From NCBI GenBank assembly GCA_021799915.1, contig JAJYZN010000152.1:1-6714 (forward strand): DNA of 6,714 nt, given 5' to 3'. The DNA is from Actinomycetes bacterium (lineage in GTDB: Bacteria > Actinomycetota > Acidimicrobiia > Acidimicrobiales > RAAP-2). Of this stretch, positions 1 to 6,714 are shown piece by piece. The stretch's first letter is position 1. Every line of letters begins with the position of its first letter. The notes beneath the pieces were generated by a model. The model saw only the letters and a list, made by a program, of their open reading frames with translations. It searched no databases and was not told where the DNA came from. The translations under genes were made by a program, and so were the position numbers.

Positions 1-800
1 GTCCGGCCGGGCGAGCGTGCCCCACTGGTGCGGGCGCGAGCCCGATGACCCCTCCAGAGCACCCATCCCGCCACCGCCACGGCGGCGACCGTGGTGAACA
101 CCGACGTCCGCACGGCAGCGCGATCCCGCAAGCGCACCGGGTTGCTGAACTCCCGGACCTCCCACCCGCGCCCCTTGGCCGTGCGAGCCAACGACCGATC
201 AGGGTTCACCGCGACAGGGTGGCCGACGGACTCGAGCATCGGGAGGTCCGTCGCCGAGTCCGAGTACGCGGTGGAGAGCGCGAGGTCAATGCCCTCCTGC
301 TCCGCCAACCTGCGGACCGCCGACGCCTTCGCCGGGCCGAACGCGTAGAACGCCATCCGACCCGTGTAGCGCCCCTCGGCGTCGACTTCGGCCCTCGATG
401 CCACCGACCCGTCGACACCGAGGAGCTCGGCCAAGGGCTGGACGATCTCCTCGGGCGCCGCGGAGACCAGGTAGACGAGGTGCCCTGCGCGGCGGTGCTC
501 CTCCATGAGGTCGAGGGCCTCGCGGTAGATGATGGGCTCGATCGTGTCGGAAAGCGTCTCTCGGACGATCGAGGCCACCCGGTCCCGCTCCCACCCTCTG
601 GTGAGCACCAGCATGCTCTCGCGAATCCGGGCCAGCTTCTGCTCGCTGGCGCCGAACTGGAGGAACACGAGCTGCCCGACGACTGCCCGGACCACCGTCC
701 GGCGACTGATGAGGCCACCGCGGCGGAACGGTCTCCCGAATGCAGCGATCGACGCCTTGGCGATGACCGTCTTGTCGAGATCGAAGAAAGCCGCCCGCAC
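1..800 (-). CDS. HAD-IB family phosphatase (SerB-like) with C-terminal membrane helix, 3' end cut by window
   Basis: Probable phosphoserine-phosphatase-like hydrolase of the HAD superfamily, subfamily IB; the substrate cannot be told from sequence. All four HAD motifs are visible: motif I DLDKT (Asp7 nucleophile, Asp9 acid/base), motif II VSAAPEE with Ser113, motif III GPAK with Lys158, and motif IV YSDSATD with Asp181 and Asp185. Residues about 233-250 form a hydrophobic helix (TTVAAVAVAGWVLW) followed by Arg/His residues, so the enzyme is probably anchored in the membrane with its catalytic domain in the cytoplasm. The frame is open to position 1; 266 codons are seen. Family members of this type are about that long, so probably only a short tail is missing. 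The GTG at 800 puts VRAAFFDLDKT at the N-terminus, as in actinobacterial relatives. No good ribosome site lies before it, but a TACAAT box does. It follows ceoC on the same strand after a 44-base gap. Family call is firm; substrate is unknown. Confidence 0.9.
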   Translation of the reverse strand, partial: MRAAFFDLDKTVIAKASIAAFGRPFRRGGLISRRTVVRAVVGQLVFLQFGASEQKLARIRESMLVLTRGWERDRVASIVRETLSDTIEPIIYREALDLMEEHRRAGHLVYLVSAAPEEIVQPLAELLGVDGSVASRAEVDAEGRYTGRMAFYAFGPAKASAVRRLAEQEGIDLALSTAYSDSATDLPMLESVGHPVAVNPDRSLARTAKGRGWEVREFSNPVRLRDRAAVRTSVFTTVAAVAVAGWVLWRGHRARARTSGARSPGR

Positions 801-807
801 GATGGCA

Positions 808-813
808 ATTGTA
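808..813 (-). promoter_or_regulatory. Candidate -10 box for a leaderless HAD transcript
   Basis: On the minus strand TACAAT (5 of 6 to TATAAT) ends seven bases before the GTG at 800. That spacing would put transcription start at or next to the start codon. The only SD-like AGGA (817-820) is 16 bases from the GTG, too far to serve it. No clear -35 is seen. If real, the HAD gene has its own promoter in addition to read-through from ceoBC. Confidence 0.4.
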
Positions 814-844
814 GGGTCCTGTGACGCCGGGATCGGCGCACCAC

Positions 845-1507
845 TTACGTGCCGATGAGCAGTGCCTGCACCGCAGCCTCGACCTCGGCGATGACGAGGG
901 TCAGCACCTCGTCGCCGATCTGGAGCACCGTGTCACCGCGCGGGACGACGAGGCGGTCGTCGCGCACGACGGCCACCACCGTGGCATCGCGAGGAAACTC
1001 GAGATCAGCAATGGCTCGACCGGCCGCCGGCGAGTCCTCCGCCAGGGTCACCTCGACCAGGTGTGCAGCACCTCCTTGGAACTGCAGCAGGCGGACGAGG
1101 GAGCCGACCGATACCGCCTCCTCCACGAGAGCGGTGAGGAGCTGGGGGGTCGAGACGGACACATCCACTCCCCAGCTCTCGTTGAAAAGCCACTGGTTCT
1201 TGGAATGGTTCACCCGGGCCAGCACACGCGGCACTGCGAATTCCTGCTTGGCCAACAAGGAGATCACGAGATTGTCCTCGTCGTCCCCGGTGGCCGCCAC
1301 CACCACGTCGACGGTGCCCATCCCGGCAGCATCGAGCGAGGCAACTTCGCAGGCGTCGGCCGCAACCCACGTCACGTCCAGCTCCTGGCGCCGTCGTTCG
1401 ACGAGATCTGAGTCCTGCTCGATCACCATGACCTCGTGGCCGTTCATGTGGAGGTCCCGTGCGATCGCGGTCCCCACGCTCCCGCCACCTGCAATGGCGA
1501 CCTTCAC
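845..1507 (-). CDS. ceoC: TrkA-family potassium uptake regulatory protein (CeoC-like)
   Basis: Cytoplasmic RCK-type regulatory subunit of potassium transport that binds NAD(H) and gates a membrane partner; 220 residues, the usual single-RCK length. An N-terminal Rossmann TrkA_N domain covers about residues 1-125: GGGSVG at 7-12 is the dinucleotide loop and Glu30, at the end of strand 2 (VMVIE), is placed to bind the ribose of NAD. ADACE, AATGDDEDN and RVNHSKNQWLF follow, as is typical of this branch. A TrkA_C domain covers about residues 140-218. The GTG start at 1507 overlaps the ceoB TGA (GTGA) and has GAGGAG five bases upstream, so translation is probably coupled. The second position in the pair and motifs such as the WGVDVSVSTP segment fit mycobacterial CeoC better than CeoB. 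The partner channel is not in the window unless it is the divergent permease. Confidence 0.93.
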   Translation of the reverse strand: MKVAIAGGGSVGTAIARDLHMNGHEVMVIEQDSDLVERRRQELDVTWVAADACEVASLDAAGMGTVDVVVAATGDDEDNLVISLLAKQEFAVPRVLARVNHSKNQWLFNESWGVDVSVSTPQLLTALVEEAVSVGSLVRLLQFQGGAAHLVEVTLAEDSPAAGRAIADLEFPRDATVVAVVRDDRLVVPRGDTVLQIGDEVLTLVIAEVEAAVQALLIGT

Positions 1508-2211
1508 GACCGCTCCTCGCTGCCGGGCGCAGCGCCGGTGACGGTCGTGCCCTCTGTCGTGCCGGTCTCGGCCATGAGCGCCTCGAGCTCGGCCAACGCA
1601 TCCCGCATCACCGCGACGTGAAGCTGGTCGCCCTCCTGCCCCACGAGGTCGCATCCATCGAGGCGGGGCACACCGGCCCGGGTGACGCCGACCAGTCGGA
1701 TCCTCCCGGGGCTCTCGATCCCCGCGAGCTTGCGCCCCGCCCAATGCTCGGGCAGCTCGCGCTCGATCAGCACGAGGCGTCCAGAAGCGTCGGCCCATTC
1801 CCCGGCCGCCGCCTCGGGCAGCAGGCGGCGCCGTACCTGGTCGATCGTCCAGGTCACCGTTGCGACCGTCGGGATGCCCAGGCGCTGGTAGATCTCGGCC
1901 CGGCGCGGGTCGTAGATCCGGGCCACGACCCGAGGTATCTGGTAGGTCTCCCGTGCGATCCGCACCGTGAGGATGTTGGTGTTGTCACCACTGGTCACCG
2001 CAGCCAGGGCGGTAGCCCCGATCGCTCCGGCGTGCTCGAGGTCGTCACGATCGAACCCCGAGCCCACGATGCGCTGCCCCGGCCATGACTCGGGAAGCCG
2101 ACGAAAGGCGCGCGGTGACCGGTCGATCACCGCGACGTCGTGCCCCTCGTTCACCAGAGCGACGGCGAGGCCCGATCCCACACGTCCGCACCCCACGACC
2201 ACCATGTGCAC
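1504..2211 (-). CDS. ceoB: TrkA-family potassium uptake regulatory protein (CeoB-like)
   Basis: First of the tandem RCK regulatory subunits; cytoplasmic, NAD(H)-binding, expected to assemble with CeoC. With the GTG at 2211 it has 235 residues. The N-terminal VHMVVVGCGRVG carries the Rossmann loop GCGRVG at 7-12 and Asp30 at the end of strand 2 (VAVID). Other family marks are GSGFDRDDLEHAG, AAVTSGDNTN, RVVARIYDPRRAEIYQRLGI and TWTIDQVRRRLL; a TrkA_C-like domain occupies about residues 145-220. The start is uncertain. GTG 2211 matches the family N-terminus (Met-His-hydrophobic) but has no ribosome site. GTG 2232 would add seven residues and has AGGA six bases upstream. GTG 2304 would add 31 unusual residues and falls in a hairpin. 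The gene faces away from the permease at 3275, as ceoB does in mycobacteria, but here a TnpB-like remnant separates them. Confidence 0.93.
   Translation of the reverse strand: MHMVVVGCGRVGSGLAVALVNEGHDVAVIDRSPRAFRRLPESWPGQRIVGSGFDRDDLEHAGAIGATALAAVTSGDNTNILTVRIARETYQIPRVVARIYDPRRAEIYQRLGIPTVATVTWTIDQVRRRLLPEAAAGEWADASGRLVLIERELPEHWAGRKLAGIESPGRIRLVGVTRAGVPRLDGCDLVGQEGDQLHVAVMRDALAELEALMAETGTTEGTTVTGAAPGSEERS
1513..1518 (-). promoter_or_regulatory. Strong ribosome binding site for ceoC
   Basis: GAGGAG on the minus strand lies five bases before the GTG at 1507 and sits inside the last codons of ceoB. It fixes the ceoC start and supports translational coupling through the 4-base GTGA overlap. 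Confidence 0.8.
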
Positions 2212-2238
2212 GCTGACAGTGCAACACGACACGTGAGG

Positions 2239-2242
2239 TCCT
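2239..2242 (-). promoter_or_regulatory. Possible ribosome binding site favouring the alternative ceoB start at 2232
   Basis: AGGA on the minus strand stands six bases before the GTG at 2232, in frame with ceoB. It is the only reasonable Shine-Dalgarno match near the N-terminus of that gene and argues for a 242-residue form, against the family-based start at 2211. Confidence 0.4.
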
Positions 2243-2286
2243 GTAAAGCCCGGGCACCGGTCACCTGTCGAAGCCGTTGCAGCCGA

Positions 2287-2308
2287 GTGAGCGATGGTGA
2301 TCACTCAC
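2287..2308. other. Nine-base-pair hairpin just past the TnpB remnant
   Basis: GTGAGCGAT (2287-2295), loop GGTG, then ATCACTCAC (2300-2308): a nine-pair stem with one G-T wobble. It begins 14 bases past the TGA of the TnpB-like frame. There is no T-run, so it is not a textbook intrinsic terminator. IS200/IS605-type elements carry subterminal hairpins rather than inverted repeats, and TnpB guide RNAs arise from this side of the gene, so it may be the right-end structure of the lost element. It could also be an operator for ceoB. Confidence 0.45.
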
Positions 2309-2321
2309 GCTGCACCGTTCC

Positions 2322-3032
2322 TCAACACTCGGCGGAACTCAGTCCCGCCTTGCGGGTGGTCCCGAACGATCTTGGGCCACCGGCACCCTTGGACCGCACG
2401 ACCCGAGCTGTAGCTCGCTCTTCCCCATGCTCTGCTGGAGTCGAGGCACACCTCCTCTCTTGGCGTGCTCGATGTCCGAGCCCGCGTCTCGCGATGACAA
2501 GAGCCGCCGCACGGTGGCCCGAGGCATCGGCTGAGATCTCTTGGAGTGAGCCGAGCCAGTGCTCGGTGCCCCACTTGCTGGTGTAGGCCGGATCGACGGC
2601 AATGACGGCGACCCCGGCGTTGGTCGCCATCTGGACCAGGCGTTGAGAGAACTTGGCCGTCGGGATACCTGCGAGTAGGCGTCGGAAGCTCTTCTCCCGC
2701 CTGCCCCGTGAAGGACGGTGTCCCGTGCGCTCTTTGCCCAGCTCCCGAGCCTCGGCGACGTCCAGGTTCTCGATCACGATGGCCCGACAGCCGCTGTCCC
2801 GTGCGGTCGTGAGCAACTCGGAGATCGCCTGGCGCAGGTGGCCGTCACGGGCGGTGGCGGGCAAGTTGGAGAGTGCGAGCGGGATCGTGCCCGGACGGCC
2901 GAGAGGGTTCCCAGAGGGGTCCACCACCATCGCTGCGAGGTGCCCTGCGTTGACGTCGACGGCCAGGACCCGGTGCCCTCGGAGCTGGCCTACCCGGATC
3001 TCGGAGCTCGAACGCGGGGTCACGCACGACAC
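2322..3032 (-). pseudogene. 5'-truncated TnpB-related (IS200/IS605 OrfB-like) RuvC protein
   Basis: This is the C-terminal nuclease half of the TnpB-related accessory protein family common in actinobacteria. Seen in order: VLAVDVNAGHLAA (RuvC-I Asp, codon 2955-2957), RAIVIENLDVAEARELG (RuvC-II Glu, codon 2769-2771), a basic patch, AGIPTAKFSQRLVQMA, VDPAYTSKWG, and DASGHRAAALVIARRGLG (probable RuvC-III Asp, codon 2526-2528). The paired cysteines of the canonical TnpB zinc finger are absent; Trp residues (SKWGTEHW) stand there, which I believe is normal in this subfamily. Full-length relatives have several hundred residues before RuvC-I. Here only about 25 unrecognised ones precede it from the GTG at 3032, so the RNA-binding N-terminal half is gone. 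The start given is a formal boundary with no ribosome site; the frame is open further upstream but does not resemble the family. No stop or frameshift interrupts the conserved part. It is read toward ceoB. Confidence 0.8.
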
Positions 3033-3157
3033 CGCACTCGCCCGGCGCTCCGTGAAGTGGCTCGACGAGCGCAGCACGGACGCCCCAGAAAGTGCCCAAC
3101 TCGCGGCTTGACAACGATAGGAGCATCGACTGTTGGCAACACCGGCGCACCGCCTTT

Positions 3158-3186
3158 GGCCGGCACACCTCACAGCAGGCCGGCAC
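3158..3186. repeat. Direct repeat GGCCGGCAC upstream of the permease
   Basis: GGCCGGCAC occurs at 3158-3166 and again at 3178-3186, 20 bases from start to start, about two helical turns. It lies about 75-105 bases upstream of the -10 box at 3263. The spacing would suit an operator pair on one DNA face. In such GC-rich sequence chance occurrence is also possible. Confidence 0.3.
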
Positions 3187-3262
3187 CGATGGGACAACCG
3201 GCCTCGGACGCCTCTGTGATCGAGCGTCGGCAGCCCATCTGGTGACCGCGGGCCATCAGTTC

Positions 3263-3268
3263 TACTCT
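3263..3268 (+). promoter_or_regulatory. -10 box for leaderless permease transcript
   Basis: TACTCT fits the TANNNT pattern of actinobacterial -10 boxes and ends six bases before the GTG at 3275, so transcription would begin at or next to the start codon. The hexamer 17 bases upstream, TGGTGA (3240-3245), matches TTGACA at only three positions. No Shine-Dalgarno precedes the GTG, which supports a leaderless start. Confidence 0.5.
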
Positions 3269-3274
3269 TGCGCG

Positions 3275-6004
3275 GTGGATACCCACGAGCGCGACGACCC
3301 GTCGTCGGACGACCGGGACGGTTCATCGGACCCAGGGAGCGCGGCGCAGGGCGCGAGAGGTGCCGACGGCGCAGCCCATCCGGCACGCGGGCTCCGGCGC
3401 CCGCTCCCTCCGCCGCCCCGGCCCATCGCCCTGCCCTCGGGTGTGGCGTCACAGTTCCCCGAATCGATCCGCTACCGGATGAAGAATTGGCTGCTCGGAC
3501 CGCCACTGGTCACCGAGCAGCTCAGCAGCGAGCGGCTCGGGCGGCCGACTGCCCTCGGCGTGCTGTCGCCGGACTGCATCTCCTCGTCGGCGTACGGCAC
3601 CGAGGAGATGCTGACCCAGCTCGTCCCCTACGTCGGCCTGGCCGCCTTCACCCTGGTCGTGCCCATCACGTTGGCCATCATCGGCGTGCTGTTCTTCGTC
3701 ACCCTCTCGTACCTCGAGGTCATCCAGCTCTACACCAAGGCCGGCGGTTCTTACGTGGTCGCCCGTGACAACTTCGGGCCCCAAGTGGCCCAGGTGGCCG
3801 CCGTTGCCCTCCTCATCGACTACACGGTCACCGTCGCCGTCCAGACCTCGGCTGGCACCGCTGCGCTCACGAGCGCCCTGCCGTCCTTGTTGAGCTACAC
3901 CGTTCCCATCACGGTCGGCGTGGTCCTCGTCCTGCTGTACGGGAACCTCCGGGGCATCCGCGAGGCGGGGAAGTACTTCGCCTTCCCGACGTACTTCTTC
4001 ATCTTCAGCTTGGGAAGCGTCATCATCGTGGGCTACGTGAAAGCGGCTCTGGGTGATCTTCACGCCAAACCGCTGCCACCGGCCTCCGAGCTGGTCGGCC
4101 AGCACATCGGGACCCCGGGGGGCGGGCTGCTCATGGGGCTGGCCTTCATCTCGCTCCTCAGGTCCTTCGCCAATGGCGGATCGTCGCTCACCGGGTTGGA
4201 GGCGATCTCGAACGGGGTGAGCAGCTTCCGGCCTCCAGAGTCCCGCAATGCCCGGGTCACGCTCGTGGCGATGAGCTCGGTGCTGGCGTTCTTGGTCCTC
4301 GGTGTGACCCTCCTGGCCCGCTGGACCCACGCCGTCCCCTACGCCATCGGCTCGCCCACCGTCGTGTCCCAGGAGGTGCGCGACGTGCTCGGGAGCAGGG
4401 GGATCGGGCACGTCCTTTTCTACGTGGTCCAGTTCGCCACGATGCTCATCCTCTATACGGGTGGCAACACGAGCTTCAACGGGTTCCCCTACCTCGCCAG
4501 CTTCGTGGCCGGGGACTCGTTCCTGCCCCGCCAGCTCACCCGCCGTGGCCACCGACTGGCGTTCTCCAACGGCATCATCGTCCTGTCCGTCGTGGCCGTC
4601 ACGCTGATCCTCGTCTTCCAGGCGAGGGTCGATGCCCTCGTCGCCCTCTACGCCATCGGCGTGTTCACCGGGTTCTTCATGGCCGGGTCGGGGATGGTGA
4701 AGCACCATCTGCGCGAGCGTGGTCCGCACTGGCGGCGCAGCGTGATCGTGAACGGCTTCGCCGCCGTGCTCACGGCCAGTGTCGTCCTCATCTTCGCCGT
4801 GGCCAAATTCCTGGAGGGCGCGTGGGTGGTCGTGGTGCTGGGCCCGCTGCTCTACTGGGGACTCATCCGGCTCCACAAGGAGTACCAAGAGGAGTCCGAA
4901 CAACTCGAGGTGGGAGCGATCCGGGCGTCAGAGGGGCGAATCCTCCGCCGGCACGTCGTGGTCGTCCTGGTCGACCGGTTGGACATGGCGACCGCCCGGG
5001 CCATCCGCTATGCCCGGACCCTCGCCCCTGACGACCTACGCGCAGTCCATTTCGACATCGACGGCGCGGTTGCACGAGAGCTGGAGCGCGAGTGGAGCAG
5101 GCTGGGCCTTTCTCGCCTCCCGCTCGACATCGTCGAATGCCCTGATCGACGCCTTGCCCGCGCCGCCATCGAGCTGGCAGCCGAGGCGGTCGCCGACGGC
5201 GACACCGAATGCACGGTCCTGCTCCCCCGGCGGAGCTTCAGCTCGGGATGGGGAAGGTTCCTCCACGACCGCACGGCCGACCGGATCGCCACCGTCCTCG
5301 GCCAAGTGCCTCACGTGAGCGCGACCATCGTCCCCTACGACCTCCACGGGCGTTGGGGCGACCGGGGCGAGCAGTACCGCCAGATCGTCCAGCGCGCGGT
5401 CACCGCCGGCCCGGGGCCCGAAAGCACCTCGGCCACTGCTCCTGCGACCGGGACGAGCACCGGCGTGGTCGAGAGCCCGGACGACGACACGGCAAGCGGG
5501 CGTGGTCTCTACGCAACACTTGGGACCGGAGAGACGGGTGGGCAGGCGATCGACGGCGATGGCGCCAACGACACATCGACCGGCACGAGCACGAGCACGA
5601 GCCCGCCCACCCCGGAGCCATCGCGCGGCCGCGGCTCCCGGCGCGACCGCGCCCGGGAAGCCGCGACGTCGCCGGCTGACCAGGCCCTCGCCCGGCGGTC
5701 CGCCGGCACCAGCCCCGTGGGTTCTGTCCAATTCCGCGAACGGGTCCGCATCGCCGGACGCGTCCGCTCGGTCCGTGTCCAGCCCCGGGCAGGTACGTCG
5801 AACCTCGAGTGCATCCTGAACGACGGCACCGGCAGCATCCTGCTCGTGTTCCAAGGCCGGCCTCGTATCCCCGGCATCGAGCCGGGTGCGCGCCTGGTCG
5901 CCGAAGGCATGGTGGGCTCCTGGGGACAGCGCATGGCCATCTTGAACCCCGACTACGAACTGGTGTCGGGCTCCGACGGGCCTCCTCCCGCCACCGCCTC
6001 GTGA
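3275..6004 (+). CDS. APC/KUP-superfamily permease (KimA-like) fused to USP-like and OB-fold domains
   Basis: Probable proton-coupled potassium (or amino-acid) importer in the plasma membrane; 909 residues from GTG 3275. Residues 1-68 are acidic, then Pro-rich (RPLPPPPRP). Residues about 92-534 hold 12 hydrophobic segments of the APC fold. Segment 1 is broken by SPDCISSSAYGTEE with Asp100 and Tyr107; KAGGSYVVARDNFG follows segment 2; DYTVTVAVQ (Asp182, Thr186) lies in segment 3; SLTGLEAISNGV (Thr306, Glu309) in segment 6; FPYLASFVAGDSFLPRQL after segment 8. These match KimA/YdaO-type K+ importers. Residues about 555-689 form an alpha/beta USP-like cytosolic domain (HVVVVLVDRLD). Residues 709-812 are a Ser/Thr/Gly-rich linker ending in a basic RGRGSRRDRAR patch. 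Residues about 814-897 are an OB-fold (VRIAGRVRSV, NDGTGSILLVF, GRPRIPGIEPG, NPDYELV) like mycobacterial Rv2694c. The start rests on the leaderless -10 box and G/C-rich codons; Met69 (3479) is the alternative. It is divergent from ceoBC. Substrate is inferred; a family role in amino-acid transport cannot be excluded. Confidence 0.88.
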   Translation: MDTHERDDPSSDDRDGSSDPGSAAQGARGADGAAHPARGLRRPLPPPPRPIALPSGVASQFPESIRYRMKNWLLGPPLVTEQLSSERLGRPTALGVLSPDCISSSAYGTEEMLTQLVPYVGLAAFTLVVPITLAIIGVLFFVTLSYLEVIQLYTKAGGSYVVARDNFGPQVAQVAAVALLIDYTVTVAVQTSAGTAALTSALPSLLSYTVPITVGVVLVLLYGNLRGIREAGKYFAFPTYFFIFSLGSVIIVGYVKAALGDLHAKPLPPASELVGQHIGTPGGGLLMGLAFISLLRSFANGGSSLTGLEAISNGVSSFRPPESRNARVTLVAMSSVLAFLVLGVTLLARWTHAVPYAIGSPTVVSQEVRDVLGSRGIGHVLFYVVQFATMLILYTGGNTSFNGFPYLASFVAGDSFLPRQLTRRGHRLAFSNGIIVLSVVAVTLILVFQARVDALVALYAIGVFTGFFMAGSGMVKHHLRERGPHWRRSVIVNGFAAVLTASVVLIFAVAKFLEGAWVVVVLGPLLYWGLIRLHKEYQEESEQLEVGAIRASEGRILRRHVVVVLVDRLDMATARAIRYARTLAPDDLRAVHFDIDGAVARELEREWSRLGLSRLPLDIVECPDRRLARAAIELAAEAVADGDTECTVLLPRRSFSSGWGRFLHDRTADRIATVLGQVPHVSATIVPYDLHGRWGDRGEQYRQIVQRAVTAGPGPESTSATAPATGTSTGVVESPDDDTASGRGLYATLGTGETGGQAIDGDGANDTSTGTSTSTSPPTPEPSRGRGSRRDRAREAATSPADQALARRSAGTSPVGSVQFRERVRIAGRVRSVRVQPRAGTSNLECILNDGTGSILLVFQGRPRIPGIEPGARLVAEGMVGSWGQRMAILNPDYELVSGSDGPPPATAS
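5584..5601 (+). repeat. CACGAG x3 microsatellite in the linker
   Basis: Three exact tandem copies of CACGAG encode a Thr-Ser alternation in the disordered linker between the USP-like and OB-fold domains. The unit is six bases, so copy-number change would lengthen or shorten the linker by two residues without shifting the frame. Confidence 0.75.
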
Positions 6005-6054
6005 GAGAATGACCGCTGTTCAGCGCCCTGAGGAACCTGCGACAGAACGCTTCC

Positions 6055-6084
6055 TTGCCTCCGGGCCGCTCCAGTCGCTATCGT
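6055..6084 (+). promoter_or_regulatory. Weak candidate promoter for hppA
   Basis: TTGCCT (6055-6060) and TATCGT (6079-6084), 18 bases apart, give TTGNNT and TANNNT half-matches. It would leave a leader of about 210 bases before the ATG at 6300. In GC-rich DNA such matches are rare but not compelling. Confidence 0.25.
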
Positions 6085-6282
6085 CCCCACGACCTCGGAG
6101 AGTCGCTGGTCCGGTGTTGCCCGTTCCCGTCGCCGGGCCGGGGTCCAGATCGGCTCTCGGGCCGAGCGGTCGATCCGGACGTCACCAGGAAGGCGGGACC
6201 GGGGTCGAGGCCAGTCTCCGGCGATCGTGCCGGTGCTCGGTGGCCGCCGACGACGAGGAGCGAGAGAGTGCGAGCTGACACG

Positions 6283-6291
6283 AAAGGGAAG
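6283..6291 (+). promoter_or_regulatory. Ribosome binding site for hppA
   Basis: AAAGGGAAG, with its AGGGA core ten bases before the ATG at 6300. The purine run is distinct from the surrounding GC-rich sequence and supports that ATG as the start. Confidence 0.6.
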
Positions 6292-6299
6292 ACCTCGGG

Positions 6300-6714
6300 A
6301 TGATCCACGCCTTAGTTGCTGAAGGGGGCTACCAAGCCTTCCACCTGAGCTCGGCCGATTGGGTGTGGCTCTTCGTGGCGTTGGGTGCGGGAGTCGTGGG
6401 CATCGGCACCGGGCTCATCCTCATGCGCGGTGTCCTGGCTGCCGACACCGGCACGGCAAAGATGCGTGACATCGCCAAGGCGATCCAAGAAGGTGCCGAA
6501 GCGTTCTTGAAGCGTCAGTTCCGGGCGATCGCCGTGATCGTGGTGCCACTGGCCGTCCTCATATTCTTCACCGCTACCCAGGTCACGAGGCCCAACGGTT
6601 CGGTCGCACTCAATTTCGTCCACGCCGGGATCTACCGGGTCATCTGCTTCCTCTTCGGCGCGGCGTTCTCGGGCCTCACCGGCTTCATCGGCATGAGCAT
6701 CGCCGTCCGAGGAA
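6300..6714 (+). CDS. hppA: Membrane-bound H+-translocating pyrophosphatase, N-terminal part (3' end cut by window)
   Basis: Integral membrane ion pump that hydrolyses pyrophosphate to move protons (or, in some relatives, Na+) across the membrane. The first 138 residues are seen. A hydrophobic segment at about 21-46 (WVWLFVALGAGVVGIGTGLI) is followed by MRDIAKAIQEGAEAFLKRQF at 55-74, a hallmark of the family, where the loop after helix 1 leads into helix 2 (about 76-93). A third segment (IYRVICFLFGAAFSGLTGFI) lies at 111-130. Full-length proteins have about 16 helices and roughly 650-800 residues, so most of the gene, including the pyrophosphate-binding acidic motifs and the residues that set K+ dependence, lies to the right of the window. 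The ATG is supported by an AAAGGGAAG site. It may share expression with the permease by read-through, but a 295-base gap suggests its own promoter. Confidence 0.93.
   Translation, partial: MIHALVAEGGYQAFHLSSADWVWLFVALGAGVVGIGTGLILMRGVLAADTGTAKMRDIAKAIQEGAEAFLKRQFRAIAVIVVPLAVLIFFTATQVTRPNGSVALNFVHAGIYRVICFLFGAAFSGLTGFIGMSIAVRG

Follow-up and report, generated by a model that had tools for sequence, protein, structure and literature searches.

An OB-fold domain fused to a KimA-type potassium transporter in Acidimicrobiia, a candidate subunit of a potassium-uptake system lacking TrkH

Why would a potassium transporter carry an OB-fold at the end of its polypeptide chain? The question is raised by a 6,714-nucleotide stretch of DNA from an actinomycete of the order Acidimicrobiales (lineage RAAP-2; assembly GCA_021799915.1, contig JAJYZN010000152.1, positions 1 to 6,714; hereafter the window). 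Here a single gene, at 3275..6004 on the forward strand, encodes a protein of 909 residues in which a permease related to KimA of Bacillus subtilis is followed by a cytosolic domain, a flexible linker and an OB-fold, and it is divergent from a pair of genes for TrkA-type RCK proteins. We propose, with a probability of about 0.6, that the OB-fold is a subunit of a potassium-uptake system without TrkH, composed of KimA, the TrkA pair and the OB protein.

The fusion is real. As a first-pass annotation of the window had proposed, the frame 3275-6004 runs without a stop across permease, cytosolic domain, linker and OB-fold; its GTG start at 3275 is provisional, being taken from the length given in that annotation, and conservation begins near residue 61 in a table of 103 rows that is biased because the rows were chosen by OB similarity. 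The domain search that the annotation had called for found PF13520 at residues 102-509 (87.4 bits) and, above its cut-off of 27 bits, PF01336 at residues 824-896 (28.6 bits, or 31 bits with the tail alone). A search seeded with words from residues 800-909 alone, in which proteins of about 500-1590 residues were considered, found the fused OB region (E <= 1e-3) in 732 proteins of that size range out of 1242 candidates; their database names are often 'amino acid transporter' or 'amino acid permease'. Among the 18 best-scoring genome loci, which belong to Acidimicrobiales or Acidimicrobiaceae wherever an order or family is named, 17 are fused in one frame and one (L017) has its OB in another frame. 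Against the nearest relative (L001), the OB (85 codons) shows 30 synonymous and 10 non-synonymous codon differences and the linker (108 codons) 24 and 65, respectively, and both stay in register in the protein alignment. This substitution pattern, together with the kept register, indicates that the whole frame is under selection, while the 732 fused proteins and the 17 of 18 fused loci exclude a sequencing error, one of the explanations that could have undone the first-pass reading.

An artefact could also take the form of an OB protein made separately from an internal start, and 15 of the 65 relatives with the fusion do have an in-frame linker start with a ribosome-site-like sequence. In the window, the linker (residues 691-813; 5345..5713, forward strand) contains only two in-frame start codons, GTG 5465 and GTG 5717, with no ATG or TTG, and no ribosome-site-like sequence precedes either of them; a separate start near 5700 is not supported. 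With hundreds of other fused proteins known and the fast-evolving linker remaining in frame, either form of artefact, two genes joined by error or an independently made OB, is very improbable. The linker is disordered in the model over residues ~711-796, and the blocks 711-790 of the full-length AlphaFold2 model have a predicted local distance difference test score (pLDDT) of 29-38. The basic, RG-rich approach to the OB that had also been noted is not a conserved property, as linkers of the 65 fused rows (34-124 residues) contain 7.4% E and 7.3% D beside 12% R and 3.4% K. The segment 5399-6004, originally singled out as the feature, covers linker, OB and a short tail, and the OB proper occupies only 5714-5968.

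The transporter is a KimA. Residues 67-688 match KimA 6s3k in a phmmer search of the PDB (E 9e-96; 4e-96 with the permease part alone), and Foldseek matches the KimA part to 8b70 (E 1.3e-25). The alignment with 6s3k assigns residues 61-540 (3455..4894, forward strand) to the KimA/KUP transmembrane domain and residues 541-690 (4895..5344, forward strand) to the KimA cytosolic domain. The latter, which the first-pass annotation took for a USP-like domain, has been described in KimA as similar to PPAT (PMC10284832; this and the other publications are cited from the parts of each that were available). The residues implicated in K+ binding and proton coupling in KimA are D36, Y43, T121, T230, E233 and Y377 (PMC6994465, a study that used the laboratory strain E. 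coli LB2003 for KimA), and the window protein has all six. For comparison with relatives, KimA proteins with at least 48% identity to the window were called type A and those with at most 45% type B, a dividing line that we set ourselves. Counted with the B. subtilis KimA chain as reference in 85 type A rows (L009 and L120 being one locus counted twice), E233 and Y377 are present in 85/85, D36, Y43 and T230 in 84/85 and T121 in 83/85, and type B retains the K+ residues as well. By homology and by these residues, the window protein belongs to the KimA/KUP-type K+ symporters.

In contrast to the K+ site, the pocket for cyclic di-AMP (c-di-AMP) is altered. The pocket residues of KimA are R337, H579, N580, Q581 and S582 (PMC10284832); the window has R, H, D, R and T at these positions, so that H-N-Q-S has become H-D-R-T, and does not carry the signature of a c-di-AMP-regulated KimA. 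Type A as a group shows V457 replaced by E in 83/85 rows, N580 by D in 82/85 and F568 by R in 75/85, with R or K at position 337 in at least 81/85. In type B, H-N-Q-S is kept in 10/10 rows (L125, a truncated fragment of an adjacent type A copy, having been left out). This difference could mean that the OB is an added c-di-AMP sensor replacing the altered pocket, were it not that type B keeps its pocket and has an OB gene too. The distribution of the diadenylate cyclase domain PF02457 points the same way: it is matched in 193/246 genomes of the class (taken as Acidimicrobiia) and in 27/44 fused genomes, leaving 17/44 fused genomes without a match, 13 of them in one clade that keeps the OB. Among the genomes of the named type A loci, matches are present in G001 (that of the window's nearest relative), G003, G007 and G008 and lacking in G002, G004, G005 and G006, although single absences are weak because genome completeness is not given. 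Because of the 17 fused genomes and the altered pocket, c-di-AMP is improbable as the ligand of the OB, and the replacement sensor is the sort of explanation that we would set aside as highly unlikely. In some lineages, then, a KimA with a linked OB appears to manage without c-di-AMP. The clade without a cyclase match consists of small genomes (1.4-2.3 Mb) and retains KimA-OB throughout (G064, G072, G076, G107, G111, G129, G132, G140, G158, G190, G212, G227, G244).

What kind of module is the OB? Modelled separately, the OB region gave a confident OB-type beta-barrel of strands and one short helix (mean pLDDT 92.8; predicted template modelling score, pTM, 0.84), so that an OB-fold proposed at residues ~814-897 is now placed at residues 814-898 (5714..5968, forward strand). 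Taken as a whole, the full-length model is poor (mean pLDDT 69.2, pTM 0.53), with pLDDT of 89-97 over blocks 801-900. Across 86 fused and separate OB sequences R821, G828, D850, G867 and P892 are invariant, and R862, N891 and an aromatic residue at 859 are kept in all or nearly all. Stand-alone genes belong to the same family, since the profile built for it matches those in a Streptomyces genome (that of L025; E 7e-22) and a Streptosporangium genome (that of L066; E 1e-21). Two sets of profile matches to PDB chains were ignored: those to ubiquitin, in which weak scores, mostly from repeats, had added up, and those to CcmE (E 0.34 and 0.48).

The nearest solved folds are the OB domains of archaeal RPA, PolC, RecG and AspRS/AsnRS, which makes binding of nucleic acid plausible for the modelled domain; for this, as for the nucleotide ligand also envisaged in the first-pass annotation, such fold neighbours are no more than a hint. 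It could accordingly be imagined as a membrane-tethered nucleic-acid binder whose salt-sensitive grip on RNA or DNA reports ionic strength or tunes the expression of K+ genes. OB-folds also bind proteins and small ligands, however, and a shared fold shows no function; nor is the linker leading to the domain conserved as basic. We regard this role as unlikely, though it deserves more weight than any of the other alternatives considered here.

The OB and KimA also occur together where they are not fused. In the class census (246 genomes; the best 22 OB candidates of each were scored, which may hide OB genes), type A KimA gave 68 matches in 58 genomes (48-78% identity) and type B 82 matches in 68 genomes (34-45% identity), both among the matches listed. 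The type A genes comprise 49 fused, 16 with an OB gene directly downstream and three others, of which one is a second copy beside an OB-bearing copy and two are interrupted by contig ends. Beside type B KimA the OB lies on the same strand within 8 kb in 44 cases and on the opposite strand in one; the 37 with none include contig ends. Counted by genome, with OB rows below 47 bits left out as RecG-like, G061 scored as having both and KimA taken from the matches listed, 96 have both genes, two OB only, 18 KimA only and 130 neither (Fisher value 4e-45 with G061 taken as OB only; like the phylum value below, it ignores kinship). One contig (C14 of G140, L215) has two tandem fused KimA-OB genes adjoining one TrkA pair.

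The junctions of the unfused type A genes are tight. Of 17 distinct pairs (16 from the census and L017), seven have a candidate OB start at -1 to the KimA stop, in an NTGA overlap, and another seven have one at +2 or +4. In the other three it is 17-38 bases inside the end of KimA, and one of these (L198) has a further candidate start at +19. With 14/17 candidate starts no more than 4 bases from the stop, the two are presumably overlapping, translationally coupled genes. In a tree of 94 rows from a quick search with type B as outside group (support 100), on which 65 fused and 17 unfused rows were scored and rows without OB left out, the fused and unfused states require five changes, of which at least four fall on branches with support of 80 or more and at least three on those with 95 or more. 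Five unfused rows form the first clade to split off within type A (support 82), the remaining type A having support 95. Because at least three changes are well supported, fusion or splitting must have occurred several times; the tree does not tell gain of fusion from loss.

For a wider view, we examined a draw of 346 genomes from the phylum Actinomycetota (OB at E <= 1e-12, KimA at E <= 1e-60; the best 15 OB candidates per genome, which may again hide OB genes). An OB was found in 111/346 and KimA in 137/346; 106 genomes have both, five OB only, 31 KimA only and 204 neither (Fisher value 2e-53). One of the five OB-only genomes owes its entry to RecG (G410), and another to a 3-kb contig on which a TrkA gene adjoins the OB (G329). 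Distances were taken from part of the listed KimA matches, namely those that share a contig with an OB row, plus a handful more. On this basis 77/116 OB entries are upstream of a listed KimA and in its orientation, at distances of 15-38 bases (10 entries), 0.9-2.2 kb (23), 2.2-4.9 kb (40) and 6.2-9.5 kb (four); five lie directly downstream of KimA, five are otherwise arranged, and for 29, of which 16 are known fused genes, no KimA is listed within 12 kb. In the ten closest cases (G255, G270, G284, G326, G356, G373, G391, G417, G426, G474) only 15-38 bases separate the end of the OB match from the KimA match that follows it in the same orientation, an arrangement that mirrors the downstream pairs. 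In all seven loci read closely (L153, L154, L251-L255) the TrkA pair lies between OB and KimA. No KimA-OB frame was found among the 297 genomes new in this draw (G255-G551): the only open frame above 600 residues with an OB match is that of G410, a RecG helicase by its sequence, and the next longest (588 residues, G329) runs off its 3-kb contig, which gave no KimA match. Nor was an OB-TrkA fusion found among 120 listed of 250 proteins, judged from precomputed Pfam domains that are lacking on many rows. The first-pass annotation gave a Mycobacterium tuberculosis order in which Rv2690c is divergent from ceoB and the OB gene Rv2694c lies beyond ceoBC; a matching order is seen in the Streptosporangium genome, where alone it was compared and where KimA, the TrkA pair, a gene of 224 residues and the OB follow one another (L154). 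The fusion is one state of a KimA-OB partnership seen across the phylum, larger than that annotation reported.

Because KimA and OB are separate neighbours elsewhere and fused here, they are expected to work together, as had been suggested from the window alone and as the census, gene order, repeated changes of state and mycobacterial screens agree. Adjacent overlapping genes do fuse easily, and one may ask whether the OB was joined to KimA through adjacency alone while doing an unrelated job. Such a passive fusion would not account for an association that takes several arrangements (fused, directly downstream, directly upstream in 10 entries and across the TrkA pair), for co-occurrence in both genome draws, for at least three changes of state or for the selection of the Mycobacterium smegmatis OB gene together with trkB (PMC10433840), and we consider it quite unlikely.

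The TrkA pair is the third component. In the window it consists of a first TrkA-type RCK protein at 1504..2304 (reverse strand; TrkA_N 83.2 bits; start provisional) and a second at 845..1798 (reverse strand; TrkA_N 92.2 bits, TrkA_C 55.1 bits), whose true start is probably nearer 1510, its RCK part beginning at residue 99-100 of the frame 845..1798. TrkA_N is above the Pfam cut-off in both and TrkA_C in one. Neighbourhoods were compared in 70 loci for which flanking DNA was taken, one of them being the window; the loci had been selected by KimA or OB matches (type B by OB), and some end at contig ends. A divergent TrkA pair adjoins KimA in 39/48 fused type A loci and in 8/8 loci with type B alone, and a pair is present in 8/14 unfused type A loci. 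The OB gene is on the far side of the TrkA pair, oriented back to KimA, in L149 and in 7/8 type B loci; L157 has the four genes on a single strand. Type A loci carry their OB at the end of KimA. The membrane protein with which TrkA proteins usually work appears to be missing: TrkH (PF02386) was matched in 1/63 genomes with type A KimA (63 of the 64 known, G144 being left out; these are relatives and not the window's own genome), and the same model matched in 11/14 controls. Since TrkH is found in so few, the TrkA pair is without its usual partner in these relatives and KimA is the adjoining transporter.

Published work on mycobacteria and Streptomyces is consistent with such an association. 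During evolution of M. smegmatis under rifampicin the OB-fold gene MSMEI_2699 acquired 11 mutations, compared with one without drug, while trkB (MSMEI_2701) acquired four versus none and a K+ channel gene eight versus none (PMC10433840); in the available part of that paper MSMEI_2699 appears once, in a table. In this species trkB is MSMEG_2769 and trkA MSMEG_2771 (PMC5401905), and MSMEG_2772 is an amino acid permease (PMC10127668). Insertions in M. tuberculosis ceoB and the adjacent Rv2690c share a phenotype, a fitness gain in rifampicin, and both are counted as Trk genes (PMC12216072); rv2690c also stands in a table of differential rifampin susceptibility with log-fold changes of 5.56, 3.26 and 1.63 (PMC10534295). 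The mycobacterial Trk is described as CeoB and CeoC, two TrkA proteins, with no membrane subunit named in the available parts of the sources (PMC8358298, PMC13163235); TrkA and the K+ channel MchK are treated in PMC9025972. In Streptomyces, an OB-fold cluster shows synteny with trkA and kdpDE (PMC13118837), and for S. venezuelae the accessible account gives two KimA-like proteins and no TrkH found (PMC10117811). Its genes include the KimA-like Vnz_27465 and the RCK_C-domain gene Vnz_27460, whose numbers suggest that they belong to a locus of this kind. Neither a KimA-OB fusion nor an OB protein as a K+ subunit was found in titles and abstract beginnings among the matches listed, a search for which subscription journals were mostly outside scope; the architecture, first flagged as unfamiliar, is abundant in protein databases.

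Fusion, shared neighbourhood and missing TrkH together lead us to predict that KimA is the membrane part of the system and the OB a subunit of it. According to this model, a KimA-type K+/H+ symporter carries its own regulatory or assembly subunit on its tail, a covalent form of the small OB protein that is encoded separately near KimA and two TrkA (CeoB/CeoC-type RCK) proteins in many Actinomycetota. KimA would form the membrane part and the TrkA pair a nucleotide-sensing ring, while the OB would lie at the cytosolic face, kept near the KimA cytosolic domain by the flexible linker, and would bind a partner or polyanionic ligand and so set transport activity. That the components form one complex, with the TrkA pair acting on KimA and the OB acting on transport, is our inference.

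Several observations weigh against this proposal. KimA occurs without OB in 18/246 class and 31/346 phylum genomes, so that the OB is not needed by every KimA. Nine of the 48 fused loci have no TrkA pair in the DNA fetched, and 8/14 unfused type A loci have one, which in three (L017, L149, L159) lies beside a type B KimA. One related genome (G033) has TrkH, and the TrkA proteins could serve other channels. In-frame linker starts with a ribosome-site-like sequence, found in 15/65 fused rows as compared with 15/130 for the other two frames, leave room for some fused relatives that might also make free OB. Finally, the grounds for identifying MSMEI_2699 as the stand-alone OB of the KimA-linked family are its annotation and a gene number that differs by two from that of trkB.

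A broader version of the proposal is more tentative, and we put it at somewhat less than an even chance: an undescribed K+-uptake machine of Actinomycetota in which a KUP-family KimA is gated by a TrkA-type RCK pair and an OB subunit, without TrkH, with KimA supplying the membrane part and OB an accessory part of the mycobacterial CeoB/CeoC 'Trk' and the Acidimicrobiia fusion revealing their contact. If true, it would assign a function to an OB gene whose present annotation is nucleic-acid binding only, explain why that gene was hit in the rifampicin evolution experiment (PMC10433840) and supply the membrane part for a mycobacterial 'Trk' described as two TrkA proteins. It points to an unrecognised working part of the actinobacterial potassium-uptake machinery.

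The remaining genes of the window are recurrent neighbours truncated at its ends, a HAD-IB family hydrolase (3..800, reverse strand) and a membrane pyrophosphatase (H_PPase; 6300..6714, forward strand). The pyrophosphatase is found in 30/70 loci (17 fused, seven unfused type A and six type B-only) and adjoins KimA in loci of both types (including L150, L151, L152, L155, L158 and L160-L163), so that a proton or sodium pump adjoins a K+/H+ symporter. The gap that separates the divergent TrkA and KimA-OB genes is longer in the window (2250-3260) by ~935 bases than in L001, where it is ~75 bases. This extra DNA encodes a TnpB-like C-terminal fragment on the reverse strand (TIGR01766, E 1.8e-7, just below cut-off), with no similar protein among the loci fetched up to that search, and is probably an IS200/IS605-type remnant within the shared promoter region. 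As for a riboswitch, the sole Rfam match in the window at E <= 1 was to a snoRNA family (19.2 bits; cut-off 50) and was taken as chance.

How does this locus compare with known systems? KimA of B. subtilis (KUP family; 6s3k, 8b70, 8b71) resembles the window protein over the transmembrane and cytosolic domains and in its K+ residues, whereas the window has an altered c-di-AMP pocket, an extra linker and OB-fold, and a divergent TrkA pair adjoining. The Trk system (a TrkH channel with a TrkA ring; CeoB/CeoC in mycobacteria) shares with the window two TrkA-type RCK proteins beside a K+ transporter, but no TrkH was matched in 62/63 related genomes, and here KimA-OB is the membrane protein that adjoins the TrkA pair. 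The RecG OB (wedge) domain has a weak sequence match and a close fold to the KimA-linked OB; the latter lies outside any helicase and scores 47-153 bits, compared with ~30-41 bits for RecG-like frames (OB matches in frames of 700-1054 residues, whose identity is assumed, one such frame, that of G410, having been read). The stand-alone OB gene near trkA (of the Rv2694c/MSMEI_2699 type, and Streptomyces cluster 13947, PMC13118837) has the OB family profile and neighbourhood seen in the window; there it is a separate gene, Rv2694c and MSMEI_2699 being likened by description only, and here it is the C-terminal domain of KimA.

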